Assembly (NCBI RefSeq): GCF_003752415.1
Contig: NZ_RKHG01000001.1
Location: 3,100,001 to 3,164,000 of the forward strand
DNA length: 64,000 bases
Origin: Luteococcus japonicus
GTDB taxonomy: Bacteria > Actinomycetota > Actinomycetes > Propionibacteriales > Propionibacteriaceae
Direction: 5' to 3'
The notes beneath the pieces were generated by a model. That model saw only the letters and a program-made list of their open reading frames with translations. It had not been told where the DNA came from and ran no database searches. Below, piece after piece: positions 57,480 to 64,000 of the stretch; within the stretch, counting starts at the first letter, position 1, and the number at the start of each line of letters is the position of its first letter. The position numbers were made by a program, and so were the translations under genes.

Positions 57480-58503
57480 GTGAACAGCAATCCCGCCCGT
57501 CCACGGGCCCTCCTCCGGTGGTTCACCGGGCTCGCGCTGGCGCTGGCCGCCCTGCTCGCGGTGCCGGCCGTCGCCCAGACCGCCCGCGCCGAGTCCGACC
57601 CGCGCCCCGCCGAGCTTCCCAAGACCCTGAAGGTGGGAACTGAGGGGGTATACCCGCCCTTCAGCTTCCACGAGGGAAGCAAACTCACCGGCTATGACAT
57701 CGAGTACTTCAACGAGGTGGCGCGCCGCCTCGGTGTCGAGGTGAGCTATGTCGAGACGCCGTGGGACTCGATCTTCGCCGCACTGGACTCTGGCCGGATC
57801 GACATCATCGCCAACCAGGTCACCAAGAATCCGGAACGCACGGCCCGCTATGACCTCTCCCGTCCACCTGCCCGACGAGGGCATCGTGCGGATCCAGGAC
57901 ACGACGGTCGACTTCGCCACGCTCAGGCGCGGGCGGCATGGTCACGCCGTGGGGGAGTCTGCCCGGGAGGTGGTCGTGCTGCGCGCCCACAGCGGCATGG
58001 TCTTCCAGCAGCACAACCTGTTCGGGCACCGCACCGTGCTTGAGAATGTCACCGAGGGCCCCGTTCTGGTGCAGGGCCACCCGCGCACGGAGGCGGAGCA
58101 GGAGGGGCGTGAACTGCTGGCCAAGGTGGGCCTGGCCGACCAGGCGGACAAGTATCCGCACCAGCTGTCCGGCGGGCAGCAGCAGCGCGTGGGCATCGCC
58201 CGGGCCCTGGCCCAGCGCCCAGACCTGCTCCTGTTCGACGAACCCACCAGTGCCCTTGACCCGGAACTGGTGGGCGAGGTCTTGGGCGTGATGCGGCAGT
58301 TGGCTGACGAGGGACGCACCATGCTGGTGGTCACCCATGAGATGCGCTTTGCCCGTGATGTGGCGGACCAGGTGCTCTTCATGGACGCCGGTGTGGTGGT
58401 GGAACAGGGCGCACCGGCCGACGTGATCGACCACCCGCAGCATCCCCGCACCCAGGCCTTCCTGCGACGGGTGCTGGACCCGTTGCATGGCCAGCACGGG
58501 TAG
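57480..58503 (+). pseudogene. Collapsed amino-acid ABC transporter (binding protein / ATPase remnants)
   Basis: Two gene fragments joined by a deletion. The first (57480 to about 57860) is the start of an extracellular amino-acid-binding protein: signal peptide (residues 1-38), then LKVGTEGVYPPFSFHEG and [20 protein letters not shown], after which homology stops. The second, in another frame (about 57864-58503), is the rest of a GlnQ-type ATPase: [16 protein letters not shown] (Q loop), [16 protein letters not shown] (signature), [14 protein letters not shown] (Walker B) and VTHEM (switch). The Walker A loop, the permease gene and the C-terminal two thirds of the binding protein are missing. 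A non-functional fusion. Confidence 0.85.
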
Positions 58504-58565
58504 CTGCACACCGGGCATCATCCCGGTCGTTGGCATGTCGTCGAGCATTGTTCACCTGAGGTGGG

Positions 58566-58571
58566 CATACT
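58566..58571 (+). promoter_or_regulatory. Possible -10 of the NRPS gene
   Basis: CATACT hexamer followed by 7 nt and the GTG at 58579, with no Shine-Dalgarno: same spacing as the other leaderless-type promoters, with a weaker first base. Confidence 0.35.
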
Positions 58572-58578
58572 GCGCGGG

Positions 58579-61500
58579 GTGAGTGCTGCAGAACCTCCCC
58601 AACCCACCGTCGTCGACCCACTGCTGCGGGGCCGCCGTGCCCCGGCCCCCCGCACGCTGGTGGAGTGCTTCGACGACGTCTGCGAACGCTTCGGTGACCA
58701 GCCCGCCCTGGATGCCGGTGGCCAGGTGCTGACCTACGACGAGTTCAGTGAGGCCGCCGGTGAGGTGGCCGCAGAACTGGCAGGTCTGGGGATCGGCCGT
58801 GGGGACAAGGTGGGGGTGCGGGTGCCGTCGGGCTCCGCAGACCTCTATGTCGCCATCATGGGCATCCTGCTGGCGGGAGCCGCCTACGTGCCGGTCGACG
58901 CCGATGACCCCGACGAACGTGCCCGCACCGTCTTCGAGGAGTCCGCGGCGGCCGCCGTGATCACCAAGGACCTGGTGGTCACGAGCCGTCTGACCGCAGT
59001 TCGTGAGCCCCACGAGGACACCGAACCTGGTCTGGCCGACGACTGCTGGGTGATCTTCACCTCCGGATCCACCGGAAAACCCAAGGGCGTGGCCGTCAGC
59101 CACCGCAGTGCCGCTGCCTTCGTCGACGCGGAGGCGCGCCTCTTCCTGCAGGGCAAGCCGCTGGGCCCCGGGGACCGGGTGATGGCCGGCCTCAGCGTGG
59201 CCTTCGACGCCAGCTGTGAGGAGATGTGGCTGGCCTGGGCCTACGGCGGCTGCCTGGTTCCCGCGCCCCGCAGCCTGGTGAAGTCGGGCGTGGACCTGGG
59301 GCCGTGGTTGATCGCCAACCGGATCACCGTCGTGTCCACCGTGCCCACGCTGGTCAGTCTGTGGCCCACCGAGGCAATGGACCGGGTCCGGCTGCTGATC
59401 GTCGGCGGCGAGGCCTGTCCGCCGGAACTGGGCGCCCGCTTCGCCACCGCGTCCCGCGAGGTGTGGAACACCTACGGCCCCACCGAGGCGACCGTCGTCG
59501 CCTGCGCCGCGCAGCTCGACGGCACACCGCCCGTACGGATCGGGCTTCCGCTCGACGGCTGGGACCTGGCCGTCGTCGACGCCGAGGGCAACCCGGTCCC
59601 AGAGGGCGGGGAGGGGGAGCTGATCATCGGCGGCGTCGGGCTGGCCCGCTACCTGGACCCCGAGAAGGACGCCGAGAAGTACGCCCCGATGCCCAGCCTG
59701 GGCTGGGAACGCGCCTACCGCTCCGGTGACGTGGTGGTCAACGACCCGGCCGGGCTGCTCTTCCGCGGCCGCGCCGATGACCAGGTGAAGGTGGGTGGCC
59801 GCCGGATCGAGCTGGGCGAGATCGACTCCGCCCTGCTCCAGCTGCCCGGCGTGCAGGGTGCCGCCGCCGCCGTGCGCAAGACCGCCAGCGGCAATGCACT
59901 GATCGTCGGCTACCTCACCGTCGACGAGACCTTCGACAAGGCTGCCAGCCTTGCCAAGCTTCGGGCCGACATGCCTGCTGCCCTGGTGCCGCGGCTCGCC
60001 GTCGTCGAGGACCTGCCCACCCGCACCAGCGGAAAGATCGATCGCGACGCACTGCCCTGGCCACTGCCCGACGCCGAAGGCGGAGACTCGGACCTCACAG
60101 AGACGGGCCGCTGGGTGGCCGGCATCTGGCGCGACGTGCTGGGCAGTCGCCCCGCCATGCCCGACGAGGACTTCTTCACCCTGGGCGGCGGCTCGCTGAC
60201 CGCCGCGCAGATCGTGGCCCGGGTCCGCGAGCGCAACCCCAGCGTCACCGTCGCCGACGTCTACGAACACCCGGCCATCGGCTCCTTCGCCGACTGGTTC
60301 GACGCCCAGACCTCCCCGTCCGGGCGTCTGAACGAGCCCGTCCACCCGGTACCGCGCAAGACCCAGGCCGGCCAGCTGGCCGCCCTGCTGGGTCTGCGCA
60401 CCATCAGTGGGCTGCGCTGGCTCTTCTGGCTGGCCCTGGGCTGTCGGCTGGCCGGGGAACTGGGCTGGGCTTTCCCGGTCACCGCGCTCCCGGTGGCACC
60501 GTGGTGGGCGCTGACGCTGGGCTGGGCGATGCTGGTCTTCCCGCCCGGCCGCCTCGCGCTGAGTGCACTGGCCGCTCGCACCATCCTGCGCGGCATCACA
60601 CCCGGCAGCTATCCACGCGGCGGCAAGGTGCACCTCCGCGTCTGGCTGGCCGAACGCGTGGCCGACGAACTGGGAGCCGGCCTGATCTCCGGTGCCGGTC
60701 TGGTGCGTTGGTACGCCCGACTGCTGGGGTGCGACGTGGGCCGCGGCATCGACCTGCACGCCATGCCGCCCATCACCGGCCACCTGACGCTGGAGGACGG
60801 CTGCTCCATCGAGTCCGAGGTGGACCTGTCCGGGCACTGGATCGATGGCGCCACCCTTCACCTGGGGCACGTCCAGGTGGGGCGCGAGGCGCGGATCGGC
60901 GCCCGTTCCACCCTGGTGGGTGGGGCCCGGGTGGGTGCCGGTGCCGAGATCTCACCCGGCTCGGCGGTCTTCGGGAAGGTTCCGCCCGGTGAGCACTGGT
61001 CGGGTTCCCCGGCGGTGCGGATCGGGGAGGCCCGCGGTCCGTGGGAGGCCCGTCCGCCGGCCCGCCAGGCGTGGACCTGGCTCTACGGCCTGACCGGGAT
61101 CGGCATCTCGCTGCTGCCGGTGCTCGCGATCGGCGTCGGGGCGGCCGTGGCCTGGCCCGCGATGTCCGCGACGACCAGCCTGACCGGCGCCCTGCGCGCC
61201 GCGCTGCTCTGGCTGCCGCTGGCGGGCCTGGCCGGATATGCGTCCCTGGTGGCGATGGTCTGGCTGTGGATCCGCGCCCTCGGCGTCGGCCTGCGTCCCG
61301 GTCACCACCCCGTCCAGGGCCGTCAGGCGCTGCAGGCGTGGGCGACGATGCGCCTGATGGACGAGGCCCGCACCTGGCTCTTCCCGCTCTACGCCGGGGC
61401 GGCCACCACCTGGTGGCTGCGCGCGCTGGGCGCAGACATGGGCAAGGACGCCGAGGCCTCCACCGTGCTGATGATCCCGTCGCTGACCAGCGTCGGTGCA

Positions 61501-62457
61501 GGGGCCTTCCTGGCCGACGACACCCTGATCGGCGGCTATGAGCTGGGCGGTGGCTGGCTGCGGATCGAGAAGGTGAAGATCGGCAAGGGCGCCTTCGTCG
61601 GGAACTCCGGCATGGCAGCCCCCGGACGCAAGGTGCCCAAGCGTTCCCTGGTGGCGGTGCTGTCCGCCGCGCCGCGTCGCAAGAAGGCCAAGGCGGGTGC
61701 CTCCTGGGTGGGTTCCCCGCCGGCGAAGCTACGACGGGTGGAGAACGACGTCGACGCTGAGCGCACGTACGCCCCGCCGCGCCGGCTGCGGGTGGCCCGC
61801 GGCCTCGTCGAGACCTGCCGGGTGCTGGCCCTGCTCACCCACCTGGGCATCCACCTGGCCGTTGCCGCCGCGCTGTTCTGGCTGGCGCACCGGATCGGCT
61901 GGTGGGCGCCGGCCCTGGCCAGTGGCGTCGTGCTGCTCGCCTGTGGTGCCGTGGCGGTCGGCTTCGCGGTGGCCGCCAAGTGGCTGCTGGTGGGCCGTTG
62001 GAAGCCCTCGGAACACCCGCTGTGGTCCGGCTTCGTGTGGCGCGGCGAACTGGCCGACACCTTCGTCGAGTCCGTCGCCGTGCCGTGGCTGCTGCGCTGG
62101 ATCCCCGGTACCCCGCTGCTCAATGTCTACTTCCGCAGCATGGGTGCGAAGATTGGCCGTGGCGTGTGGTGCGAGACCTACTGGCTGCCCGAACACGACC
62201 TGATCCACCTCGCACAAGGGGCGACGGTCAACAAGGGGTGCGTGGTGCAGACCCACCTCTTCCACGACCGGGTGCTGTCCATGGACACCGTCACGCTGGG
62301 ACGCGGCGCCACCCTGGGCCCCAACTCGGTGATCCTGCCGGCCTCGACGCTGGGCAAGCACGCCACGGTCGGACCGGTCTCGCTGGTGATGCGCGGCGAG
62401 TCCGTGCCGGACAAGACGCGCTGGATCGGCAATCCGATTGGACCGTGGGAGGACTGA
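58579..62457 (+). CDS. Pls/PosA-family non-ribosomal peptide synthetase
   Basis: 1292 aa. Residues about 20-500 are an adenylation domain: WVIFTSGSTGKPKG near 158, NTYGPTEATV, YRSGDVV, GRADDQVKVGGRRIELGEID, and the terminal lysine in RTSGKIDRD. Residues about 515-590 are a carrier domain with the phosphopantetheine serine in FFTLGGGSLTAAQ (near 538). The C-terminal ~690 residues hold several transmembrane helices alternating with left-handed beta-helix (hexapeptide) segments (TLEDGCSIESEVDLSG, VQVGREARIGARSTLVGGARVGAGA in part, AQGATVNKGCVVQTH). This A-T-membrane layout is that of poly-lysine-synthetase-like (Pls/PosA) enzymes; no normal condensation or thioesterase domain is visible. Amino acid and product are unknown. 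Starts at GTG 58579; 18 upstream bases are open. Confidence 0.88.
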   Translation: MSAAEPPQPTVVDPLLRGRRAPAPRTLVECFDDVCERFGDQPALDAGGQVLTYDEFSEAAGEVAAELAGLGIGRGDKVGVRVPSGSADLYVAIMGILLAGAAYVPVDADDPDERARTVFEESAAAAVITKDLVVTSRLTAVREPHEDTEPGLADDCWVIFTSGSTGKPKGVAVSHRSAAAFVDAEARLFLQGKPLGPGDRVMAGLSVAFDASCEEMWLAWAYGGCLVPAPRSLVKSGVDLGPWLIANRITVVSTVPTLVSLWPTEAMDRVRLLIVGGEACPPELGARFATASREVWNTYGPTEATVVACAAQLDGTPPVRIGLPLDGWDLAVVDAEGNPVPEGGEGELIIGGVGLARYLDPEKDAEKYAPMPSLGWERAYRSGDVVVNDPAGLLFRGRADDQVKVGGRRIELGEIDSALLQLPGVQGAAAAVRKTASGNALIVGYLTVDETFDKAASLAKLRADMPAALVPRLAVVEDLPTRTSGKIDRDALPWPLPDAEGGDSDLTETGRWVAGIWRDVLGSRPAMPDEDFFTLGGGSLTAAQIVARVRERNPSVTVADVYEHPAIGSFADWFDAQTSPSGRLNEPVHPVPRKTQAGQLAALLGLRTISGLRWLFWLALGCRLAGELGWAFPVTALPVAPWWALTLGWAMLVFPPGRLALSALAARTILRGITPGSYPRGGKVHLRVWLAERVADELGAGLISGAGLVRWYARLLGCDVGRGIDLHAMPPITGHLTLEDGCSIESEVDLSGHWIDGATLHLGHVQVGREARIGARSTLVGGARVGAGAEISPGSAVFGKVPPGEHWSGSPAVRIGEARGPWEARPPARQAWTWLYGLTGIGISLLPVLAIGVGAAVAWPAMSATTSLTGALRAALLWLPLAGLAGYASLVAMVWLWIRALGVGLRPGHHPVQGRQALQAWATMRLMDEARTWLFPLYAGAATTWWLRALGADMGKDAEASTVLMIPSLTSVGAGAFLADDTLIGGYELGGGWLRIEKVKIGKGAFVGNSGMAAPGRKVPKRSLVAVLSAAPRRKKAKAGASWVGSPPAKLRRVENDVDAERTYAPPRRLRVARGLVETCRVLALLTHLGIHLAVAAALFWLAHRIGWWAPALASGVVLLACGAVAVGFAVAAKWLLVGRWKPSEHPLWSGFVWRGELADTFVESVAVPWLLRWIPGTPLLNVYFRSMGAKIGRGVWCETYWLPEHDLIHLAQGATVNKGCVVQTHLFHDRVLSMDTVTLGRGATLGPNSVILPASTLGKHATVGPVSLVMRGESVPDKTRWIGNPIGPWED

Positions 62458-62463
62458 GGGGCC

Positions 62464-62469
62464 TAGGCT
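62464..62469 (+). promoter_or_regulatory. -10 hexamer TAGGCT of the aminopeptidase gene
   Basis: TAGGCT immediately after the NRPS stop, 70 nt before the aminopeptidase ATG. It gives a leader of about 60 nt that consists mostly of the 13-bp triple repeat. Confidence 0.45.
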
Positions 62470-62477
62470 GTATCCCT

Positions 62478-62516
62478 GTCCGCACGAAGAGTCCGCACGA
62501 AGAGTCCGCACGAAGA
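62478..62516 (+). repeat. Three perfect 13-bp tandem repeats in aminopeptidase leader
   Basis: GTCCGCACGAAGA occurs three times head to tail (62478-62490, 62491-62503, 62504-62516) without any mismatch. The array lies between the probable -10 (62464-62469) and the ribosome binding site (GAGGAGA, about 62526-62532), so it is transcribed. Confidence 0.95.
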
Positions 62517-62538
62517 CGACGAGCACGAGGAGACCCAG

Positions 62539-63864
62539 ATGGCCGCGCCGGATCCGTACCTTTCCGGACACGGCGACGACCGCTACCGCGTGCGTCACTA
62601 CGACCTGCGGCTGGACTACAAGGTCACCACGAATCGGCTCGACGAGGTCGCGGTGCTGGACGTGGAGATGGTGGCCGACGCCAAGCAGCTGGAGCTGGAC
62701 CTGTCCGGCCTGCAGGTCTCCAAGGTGCTCGTCGACGGCACCAAGGCCCGCCACCGTACCCGCAATCGCAAGCTCCTGGTGGAGCTGGGCGCCGCCGAAG
62801 CGGGGGACCGCTTCCGGGTGACGGTGAACTGTGCCGGCAAGCCGCGCCCCGTGCCCGGCGTGCACGGCGCCGCCGGCTGGGAGGAACTGACCGACGGGGT
62901 CCTGGTCGGTTCCCAGCCGCAGGGCGCGCCCGGTTGGTTCCCGTGCAATGACGACGCCGCGGACAAGGCCACCTACCGGATCCAGCTCGACGTGGCCCAG
63001 AGCTACCACGTCGTCGCCAACGGCACCCTGGTGGACCAGGAGAACCGTGGCGGCAGCACGCGCTGGGTCTACGAGATGGACGCCCCGATGGCGCCCTACC
63101 TGGCCACCGTGCAGATCGGCCACTACGTCACCACCGATCTCTCGGGTGCTCCGGTGCCGGTGCAGATCGTCCACCCGCCGCACGTCGCCGTCGGTGCCGG
63201 CACCGCCTTCGAGCACCAGGCGGAGATGGTGCGCCACTTCGTCGACCTGTTCGGCCCCTACCCCTTCCGGCAGTACCGCGCCGTGGTGGCCAATGACGTG
63301 CTGGAGATCCCGCTGGAGGCCCAGGGGCTGAGCTCCTTCGGGCGCAACTTCGCCCGGCCCACCTGGGAGAACGAACGCCTGGTGGCCCATGAGCTGTCCC
63401 ACCAGTGGTTCGGCAACAGCGTCACCGCAAGCCAGCTGGCAGACATCTGGCTGCACGAGGGATTCGCCTGCTATTCGGAATGGCTGTGGGCGGACCACCG
63501 CGCCGCCACGGATCCGCGGGTGCTGGACGTGCAGGCCCAGGCCGAACGCCACCACCGGGACCTGGCGCAGGAGAAGCAGGGGCTGGTGCTCACCGAACCC
63601 GGCATGCCCAACATGTTCGACGACTGGGTCTACAAGCGCGGCGCGCTGACCCTGCACGCGGTACGTGCCTGCCTCGGCGATGACGCCTTCTTCCGGATGC
63701 TGCAGTCCTGGACCGCCACCCACGCCGGCGGCATCGTGACCACCAAGATGTTCGTGGACCACTGCATCGAATTCGCCTCCGACGACGGTTTCGAGCTGGC
63801 AGCCACCCTCGACGCGTGGCTCAACCAGCCACGACTTCCAGGGCTACCGGTCCTTCGCCGCTGA
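62539..63864 (+). CDS. M1-family metallo-aminopeptidase
   Basis: 441 aa. Zinc site HELSH at residues 284-288 (within VAHELSHQWFGNSVT) with the third ligand Glu307 in LHEGFACYSEWLW, 18 residues on, as in M1 peptidases. The N-terminal beta-sandwich (about 1-200) is present; the exopeptidase signature is only loosely visible in the region before the zinc site. It lacks the long C-terminal helical domain of PepN and ends soon after the catalytic domain. Such short M1 enzymes often sit next to Pls/PosA-type NRPS genes; a role in processing its product is inference. Overlaps the convergent PPTase gene by 44 bp. Confidence 0.92.
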   Translation: MAAPDPYLSGHGDDRYRVRHYDLRLDYKVTTNRLDEVAVLDVEMVADAKQLELDLSGLQVSKVLVDGTKARHRTRNRKLLVELGAAEAGDRFRVTVNCAGKPRPVPGVHGAAGWEELTDGVLVGSQPQGAPGWFPCNDDAADKATYRIQLDVAQSYHVVANGTLVDQENRGGSTRWVYEMDAPMAPYLATVQIGHYVTTDLSGAPVPVQIVHPPHVAVGAGTAFEHQAEMVRHFVDLFGPYPFRQYRAVVANDVLEIPLEAQGLSSFGRNFARPTWENERLVAHELSHQWFGNSVTASQLADIWLHEGFACYSEWLWADHRAATDPRVLDVQAQAERHHRDLAQEKQGLVLTEPGMPNMFDDWVYKRGALTLHAVRACLGDDAFFRMLQSWTATHAGGIVTTKMFVDHCIEFASDDGFELAATLDAWLNQPRLPGLPVLRR

Positions 63865-64000
63865 CGGCCTCGTCCCCCAGCGCGACTGCGCAGGCCCAGC
63901 CCGGCCCCAGGTCCACGTCGACGAGCCAGGCCAGCTCCTGCTGCACGGCAAGACTGCGCGGATCCACGGTGAGACCGGTGCCGCGGGCCTTCAGTGCCGC
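63821..64000 (-). CDS. Phosphopantetheinyl transferase, C-terminal part
   Basis: Only the last 59 codons are inside the window; the gene continues past position 64000. The visible part begins AALKARGTGLTVDPRSL, matching the conserved (K-E)-A-x-L-K-A-x-G-x-G-L helix of Sfp-type 4'-phosphopantetheinyl transferases, and ends in a short beta-strand tail with ACAVALGD. It would load the carrier domain of the neighbouring NRPS. The short visible length keeps confidence moderate. Confidence 0.7.
   Translation of the reverse strand, partial: AALKARGTGLTVDPRSLAVQQELAWLVDVDLGPGWACAVALGDEAVSGEGPVALEVVAG

Follow-up and report, generated by a model that had tools for sequence, protein, structure and literature searches.

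The question raised by the right-hand end of the window (the whole 64,000-nucleotide stretch analysed, bases 3,100,001-3,164,000 of the 3.45 Mb single-contig genome of Luteococcus japonicus) is what product is made by a Pls/PosA-type synthetase whose gene, pls, is followed on the same strand by an M1 peptidase gene and then by a convergent gene for a phosphopantetheinyl transferase (PPTase), the frame of which exceeds the window end. Based on the predicted substrate pocket and on the genes found beside related synthetases, we propose, with a probability of about 0.85, that this operon makes epsilon-poly-L-lysine. This polymer is a natural antimicrobial and serves as a food preservative, and the locus would add a compact candidate to the sources of an antimicrobial polymer in commercial use. 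The Pls/PosA system and the pairing of synthetase and peptidase have already been published (PMC8117764, PMC10522769), and the locus described here is a fresh, well-conserved example. The three genes are as follows (nt, nucleotides; aa, amino acids).

58561..62457, plus strand: pls, Pls/PosA-type synthetase, 1298 aa counted from 58561; start GTG 58561 or in-frame GTG 58579
62539..63864, plus strand: two-domain M1 metallopeptidase, 441 aa, PldII-like by position (Peptidase_M1 91.4 bits, Peptidase_M1_N 33.8 bits, each above cut-off)
complement 63821-64357 (63821..64000 in the window, the 3' part), minus strand: 4'-phosphopantetheinyl transferase, 178 aa (PF01648 33.5 bits)

The pls product had been called a Pls/PosA-type synthetase in an earlier note on this DNA, and the NCBIfam search bore this out with 688.5 bits to TIGR02353 (cut-off 423.1), along with 328.5 bits to AA-adenyl-dom (cut-off 317.4). 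Its Pfam matches were AMP-binding, PP-binding and Hexapep and nothing else at E <= 0.001, in agreement with the single adenylation-thiolation (A-T) module joined to a membrane and hexapeptide C-terminal region described in that note; neither a standard condensation domain, which the note had reported as absent, nor a thioesterase domain was among these matches. The closest named relative of the synthetase, among the matches listed, came from Kocuria subflava with 74% identity, and eight AMP-binding places were found in the genome, counting pls. The layout of the chain (TM, transmembrane helix) is given below.

58561..60075, plus strand: adenylation domain, aa 1-505 (623 bits to 7wew, aa 8-505)
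60109..60297, plus strand: carrier (thiolation) domain, aa 517-579, pantetheine Ser545 (PP-binding 46.3 bits)
60355..60585, plus strand: helix pair 1, aa 599-633 and 648-675, taken as TM1-TM2 (model helices)
60724..61029, plus strand: C1, predicted left-handed beta-helix, aa ~722-823 (Hexapep aa 770-803, model strands, serine acetyltransferase sequence matches)
61069..61284, plus strand: TM3-TM4, aa 837-869 and 874-908 (model helices; hydropathy segments 839-870, 880-904)
61420..61731, plus strand: C2, predicted left-handed beta-helix, aa ~954-1057, with near-invariant D986 and N1015 (model, alignment)
61819..61992, plus strand: TM5-TM6, aa 1087-1111 and 1115-1144 (model helices; hydropathy segments 1086-1109, 1114-1145)
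62140..62445, plus strand: C3, predicted left-handed beta-helix, aa ~1194-1295 (model; gamma-carbonic-anhydrase/hexapeptide sequence matches)
62248..62268, plus strand: proposed catalytic motif QTHLFHD, aa 1230-1236 (Q1230, H1232, D1236; family conservation)

Three helix pairs and three beta-helices are thus seen in the predicted model, in which the carrier domain matched 5ja2_A (Z 11.9, root-mean-square deviation (rmsd) 1.5 over 73 aa). The hydropathy threshold was passed by pairs 2 and 3 only, and the TM1-TM2 pair, which lies under it, is placed in the membrane by analogy with the published family; the hydropathy scan also flagged aa 92-114, located within the adenylation domain.

The evidence that carries the assignment of the product is the pocket code. 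The ten pocket positions, located by the GrsA convention, are D216, A217, E220, S259, I280, G282, T304, V312, V313 and K492, which give DAESIGTVVK. The pocket aspartate, the loss of which had been set beforehand in the earlier note as a refutation, is present as D216; for the two amines the code offers an Asp and a Glu, and its chain-length position is Ala. Among solved structures, 7wew, the adenylation domain of an epsilon-poly-L-lysine synthase, gave the best sequence match, and it has the same ten-residue code. DAESIGTVVK was identical in 81/81 aligned sequences (the window protein and 80 relatives), the relatives being the best 80 of at least 592 confirmed places and a biased sample, with one of the six search patterns overlapping the pocket. 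An Acinetobacter baumannii synthetase served as positive control: read at these positions it gave DMEHNGTVSK, which is the code printed for the poly-ornithine enzyme PosA (PMC10522769). Since the window code is identical to that of the epsilon-poly-L-lysine enzyme, the product need not stay open as it had in the earlier note: the membrane-associated, polymeric amino-acid product stands and can be predicted from the pocket to be epsilon-poly-L-lysine, while a diketopiperazine or small peptide was set aside as unsupported, since no condensation or thioesterase domain was found in the synthetase and its terminal region is of the homopolymer type.

The gene neighbourhood, the loss of which in relatives the earlier note had set as its other refutation, is conserved and provided further evidence: a same-strand M1 gene (358-592 bits) lies downstream of the synthetase gene in 80/80 relatives, with an overlap or a spacing of at most 49 nt in 75 and a spacing of 271-2071 nt in five (L036, L041, L046, L048 and L071). 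For a less biased sample, 394 genomes of the class were searched with TIGR02353, and 105, self included, matched at E <= 1e-60; leaving out the window's own, the 118 matched genes comprise 94 with the lysine code, 8 with other codes and 16 without an adenylation domain aligned in the same frame. A same-strand downstream M1 gene was found for 89/94, 4/8 and 0/16, respectively, so that nearly all lysine-code synthetases sampled in the class go with an M1 partner. A narrower neighbour filter gave 76/94 and 4/8, the lower figure arising because its gap limit excluded long frames overlapping pls. In their C-terminal regions the lysine-code exceptions (L149, L164, L185, L215 and L225) reach 23-50% identity, and for two of them the stretch gives less than 4 kb of room. 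Among the 20 best matches in 57 nearer genomes, some of which are also in the class sample, M1 genes accompanied 17/17 other lysine-code genes and 0/2 other-code genes, the flanks covered being only about 1.5 kb.

The M1 peptidase was correctly named in the earlier note, as both of its Pfam domains were above cut-off. It scored 100 bits against the full-length pepN model (cut-off 591), consistent with a two-domain M1, and the predicted model, with a predicted local distance difference test score (pLDDT) of 94.8, consists of an N-terminal beta domain and a catalytic domain only. The zinc site is invariant in an alignment of 84 rows (80 relatives, two named Streptomycetaceae and two rows of the window protein).

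63388..63459, plus strand: zinc site HELSH-x18-E (H284, E285, H288, E307), invariant in 84/84

Y365 and E260 were likewise kept in 84/84. The motif GxMEN is that of M1 exopeptidases, and the region reads P-[LIVM]-E-[AS] in the Pls-linked M1 group, with N once. The best structural match was the two-domain M1 of Deinococcus radiodurans (6a8z, 6iff; Z 48.5, rmsd 2.1-2.2 over 417-419 aa), from which the window protein differs in that exopeptidase-motif region and with 30% identity, followed by tricorn factor F3 (Z 43.0) and LTA4 hydrolase (Z 42.2). No leader was seen and no strongly hydrophobic stretch was found by hydropathy (top 19-residue mean 0.92), and the M1 peptidase is therefore probably cytoplasmic.

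All three genes of the self-contained pathway suggested in the earlier note are present, but we infer that the M1 peptidase is better read as a partner enzyme that degrades the product than as one that helps to make it. Streptomyces PldII, which is encoded beside pls, degrades epsilon-poly-L-lysine (PMC8117764); it is described as an aminopeptidase of the endo type that lies outside the membrane and whose translation is coupled to that of pls (PMC9223678). Inactivation of Pld and PldII left production and chain length unchanged (PMC8506220), and the double mutant was still without polymer at neutral pH (PMC9205021), which leaves a protective or length-setting role tentative.

For the PPTase, the PF01648 match of 33.5 bits (34.5 in the genome search) exceeds the Pfam cut-off of 25 on the complement strand, as the earlier note had it, and no NCBIfam match was found. 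The gene shares 44 nt with the 3' end of the M1 gene and extends 357 nt past the window end, the full frame being read from the sequence beyond. Convergent M1 and PPTase genes were found for 17/80 relatives and 23/118 class-sample genes, which rules out the PPTase as a fixed part of the locus; in L179, L223 and L225, also among the 118, a PPTase gene lies elsewhere in the stretch. Among five further distant records, a PPTase gene lies directly downstream of Pls/PosA genes on Sphingomonas and Rhizobium plasmids (L229 and L231, codes DMEHNGTVTK and DLEDIGTVVK), and the Azospirillum, R. erythropolis and Acinetobacter records show no annotated PPTase gene next to theirs. Within a limited coverage of Pls papers, no match joined Pls, aminopeptidase and PPTase, and the term phosphopantetheinyl was absent from the available parts of PMC8506220 and PMC9205021; such a link may still be published.

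The alternative that survives best is that the three genes are neighbours by descent without forming a functional unit, the M1 peptidase and the PPTase doing housekeeping. The minority adjacency of the PPTase is in line with it, as are the three PF01648 places in the genome, two of them besides the window PPTase. We nevertheless consider it unlikely, because the M1 gene is downstream in 80/80 and 89/94 in comparison to 0/16 for the same-family genes without an adenylation domain, and because the PPTase also directly follows Pls/PosA genes on the two plasmids (2/5 distant records).

Several points weigh against epsilon-poly-L-lysine as the product and against the partnership with a PldII-like peptidase. 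The product is predicted from the genes, and these may be silent in the host: epsilon-poly-L-lysine was obtained from a Corynebacterium variabile gene of the same architecture, with a peptidase partner, when expressed in Streptomyces coelicolor, while C. variabile itself yielded no polymer under the authors' conditions (PMC8117764). Five of the 94 lysine-code genes have no M1 gene within the fetched stretch, and four of the eight other-code genes also have one, 775-810 nt downstream. PldII was modelled with two zinc ions at residues that misfit the single-zinc HEXXH-E here, and it was placed outside the membrane (PMC9223678), whereas the window M1 shows no leader; the likeness to PldII would be one of position. 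The four other-code synthetases with an M1 gene (L221, L222, L224 and L226) carry DFEY[IL]GTVTK codes and a related M1 (243-259 bits), and the pairing therefore reaches past the lysine branch; for the same reason, the idea that the M1 gene marks only the lysine code was rejected as too strong.

Silence in the host is also the substance of a second alternative, in which the cluster is decayed or silent and gives no product here. Upstream of the locus lie an M16 peptidase gene and pnp, the latter named from its sequence rather than by a family search, and downstream come the PPTase gene, a pullulanase gene and dapB (lysine biosynthesis). The M16 search of 12 same-family genomes gave matches in 11 and five clear orthologues (379-427 bits), all five adjoining pnp. 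As dapB directly follows the M16 orthologue in 4/5 such relatives, the simplest reading is that the segment from about 57438 to the dapB start is an insertion in the L. japonicus lineage. The pullulanase-type alpha-1,6-glucosidase gene (L004 8366-11149, just past the window, between the PPTase gene and dapB) apparently belongs to the same inserted segment. The placement of dapB was rejected as evidence for lysine, since dapB was found in none of the 80 relatives' loci (flank <=10 kb). Directly upstream of pls, at 57480-58503 on the plus strand, is the remnant of a polar amino-acid ABC transporter, which retains half of a solute-binding protein (SBP_bac_3 positions 1-81 of 132) and, after it, an overlapping ATPase frame matching ABC_tran only from position 37 on, with no permease seen between. 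This truncated transporter would fit a decaying cluster, as would the patchy presence of the family, with TIGR02353 above cut-off in 5/33 family genomes, self included, one of which (L107) has another code. However, the three frames are open and the checked residues of the pocket, the zinc site and the C3 motif are intact, and we regard a decayed or silent cluster as improbable.

That the synthetase takes another diamino acid (ornithine, diaminobutyrate, diaminopropionate or beta-lysine) and makes a different cationic polymer is very improbable, for although the family as a whole uses such substrates, the class sample includes DFEYLGTVTK, DFECLSVVTK and DFECLSAVTK, and pocket selectivity can be loose (the PosA M218A variant acquired the use of lysine, PMC10522769), ten of ten positions equal those of the lysine enzyme, with its Ala at the chain-length position, and no dat or ask gene is among the identified neighbours, unlike synthetase L110 (DFECLSAVTK), whose neighbours are diaminobutyrate transaminase and aspartate kinase genes instead.

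With epsilon-poly-L-lysine as the preferred product, the second part of the question is how the bond is formed, which the earlier note called unclear and which stays so in the literature covered. The predicted model of the C-terminal 794 aa (pLDDT 90.9, predicted template modelling score 0.91) shows the carrier domain, three helix pairs and three short-strand stretches, which may be read as left-handed beta-helices. Foldseek matched serine acetyltransferases and other hexapeptide acyltransferases, although these matches span part of the model, with TMq of 0.07-0.16 among the 50 matches listed, which counts against the reading. In the structural alignment, carrier-domain matches fill the list, and the absence of beta-helix proteins there is uninformative; a sequence search of the PDB with the C-terminal region gave remote hexapeptide proteins only. 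The published PosA model has approximate three-fold symmetry and packs as in sugar-nucleotide acyltransferases, no structure being available according to that paper (PMC10522769).

To see which residues are kept, we aligned 126 genes (118 sampled and 8 named) from actinobacteria and proteobacteria. H1232, D986 and E1163 were kept in 126/126 aligned members, and N1015, E1211, Q1230, D1236 and R1192 in 125/126 each. The Q-x-H-x3-D motif of the third beta-helix suggests a single acyl-transfer site, and conservation would place one catalytic site on C3, aided by C2. A catalytic His in C1 was rejected, as H691 and H733 (C1), together with H1235 (C3), occur in 97-98% of lysine-code genes but only in 0-25% of the two other groups. 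On the other hand, R693, W695 and R720 (in or near C1) and Q605 were kept in at least 90% of all three groups, which tells against one C2/C3 site; these C1-area residues would favour no single interface.

It is tentatively proposed, at somewhat less than even odds, that each Pls/PosA enzyme is a pseudo-trimer of a hexapeptide acyltransferase built from a single chain, with only one of its three interfaces catalytic, the one formed by the C3 Q-x-H-x3-D motif with C2 D986 and N1015, with the pantetheine arm of the carrier in place of coenzyme A (CoA) and the other two interfaces freed for chain binding and export. If true, this would be a further route, beside condensation domains and standalone ligases, to amides from carrier-bound amino acids. 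The comparative data make isopeptide-bond formation by Pls without a condensation domain testable through a few point mutants. The Q-x-H-x3-D motif was not named in the titles and abstract openings found on Pls structure and catalysis, and with this limited literature coverage it may still be published.

The pathway would then run as follows. The adenylation domain would activate L-lysine as its adenosine monophosphate ester, as the identical pocket code indicates, and the lysyl group would pass to the pantetheine arm at Ser545. The adjacent PPTase could install this arm, as both domains are present. The C-terminal region, with three predicted left-handed beta-helices and six membrane helices, would move the lysyl group to an epsilon-amine, either that of free lysine or that of the lengthening polymer, as in CoA-dependent hexapeptide acyltransferases with the carrier arm replacing CoA; in this step the fold is supported and the chemistry putative. 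Judging from conservation, a single site on C3 (Q1230, H1232, D1236 and E1211) with C2 D986 and N1015 could perform the transfer, and the polymer might leave through or beside the membrane part. The M1 peptidase would hydrolyse isopeptide chains for self-protection or recycling, as its position and the reported Streptomyces PldII suggest, and these would probably be cytoplasmic chains because no M1 leader was seen.

Compared with known systems, the synthetase resembles Pls of S. albulus (adenylation domain 7wew) in the order of A, T and terminal region and in the identical pocket code. The S. albulus pls-pldII operon was compared through a Streptomyces plasmid record annotated pls (L108). In that record a gene for an M1 family metallopeptidase is directly downstream, as here, and in a Kitasatospora record an M1 gene adjoins the epsilon-poly-L-lysine synthase gene too. 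The L108 M1 differs by a leader-like N-terminus (read by eye) that is absent from the window M1, with 39% identity, and no PPTase is listed beside pls in its incomplete gene table, whereas the PPTase gene adjoins in the window. The C. variabile Pls, compared by description only, is a coryneform-type Pls with a peptidase partner, and the available part of that paper makes no mention of a PPTase (PMC8117764), whereas the window PPTase gene adjoins the M1 gene. PosA of A. baumannii (PMC10522769) has the same terminal region, including the QTH-x3-D motif, but differs in its ornithine code DMEHNGTVSK and in 27% C-terminal identity, and the A. baumannii record (L233) has no gene annotated as M1 or PPTase. 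The trimeric hexapeptide acyltransferases, such as serine acetyltransferase, share the left-handed beta-helix fold, but Pls has three copies in one chain, fused membrane helices, and carrier-protein feeding instead of CoA.

The 16 of the 118 TIGR02353 genes without an in-frame adenylation domain (L111, L112, L128, L130-L133, L135, L137, L148, L183, L211, L214, L216, L217 and L228) keep Q1230, H1232 and D1236 and have no M1 neighbour. For 14 of the 16, another frame with an adenylation-domain match was found in the same stretch, and these genes are possibly a two-gene form of the Pls/PosA family.

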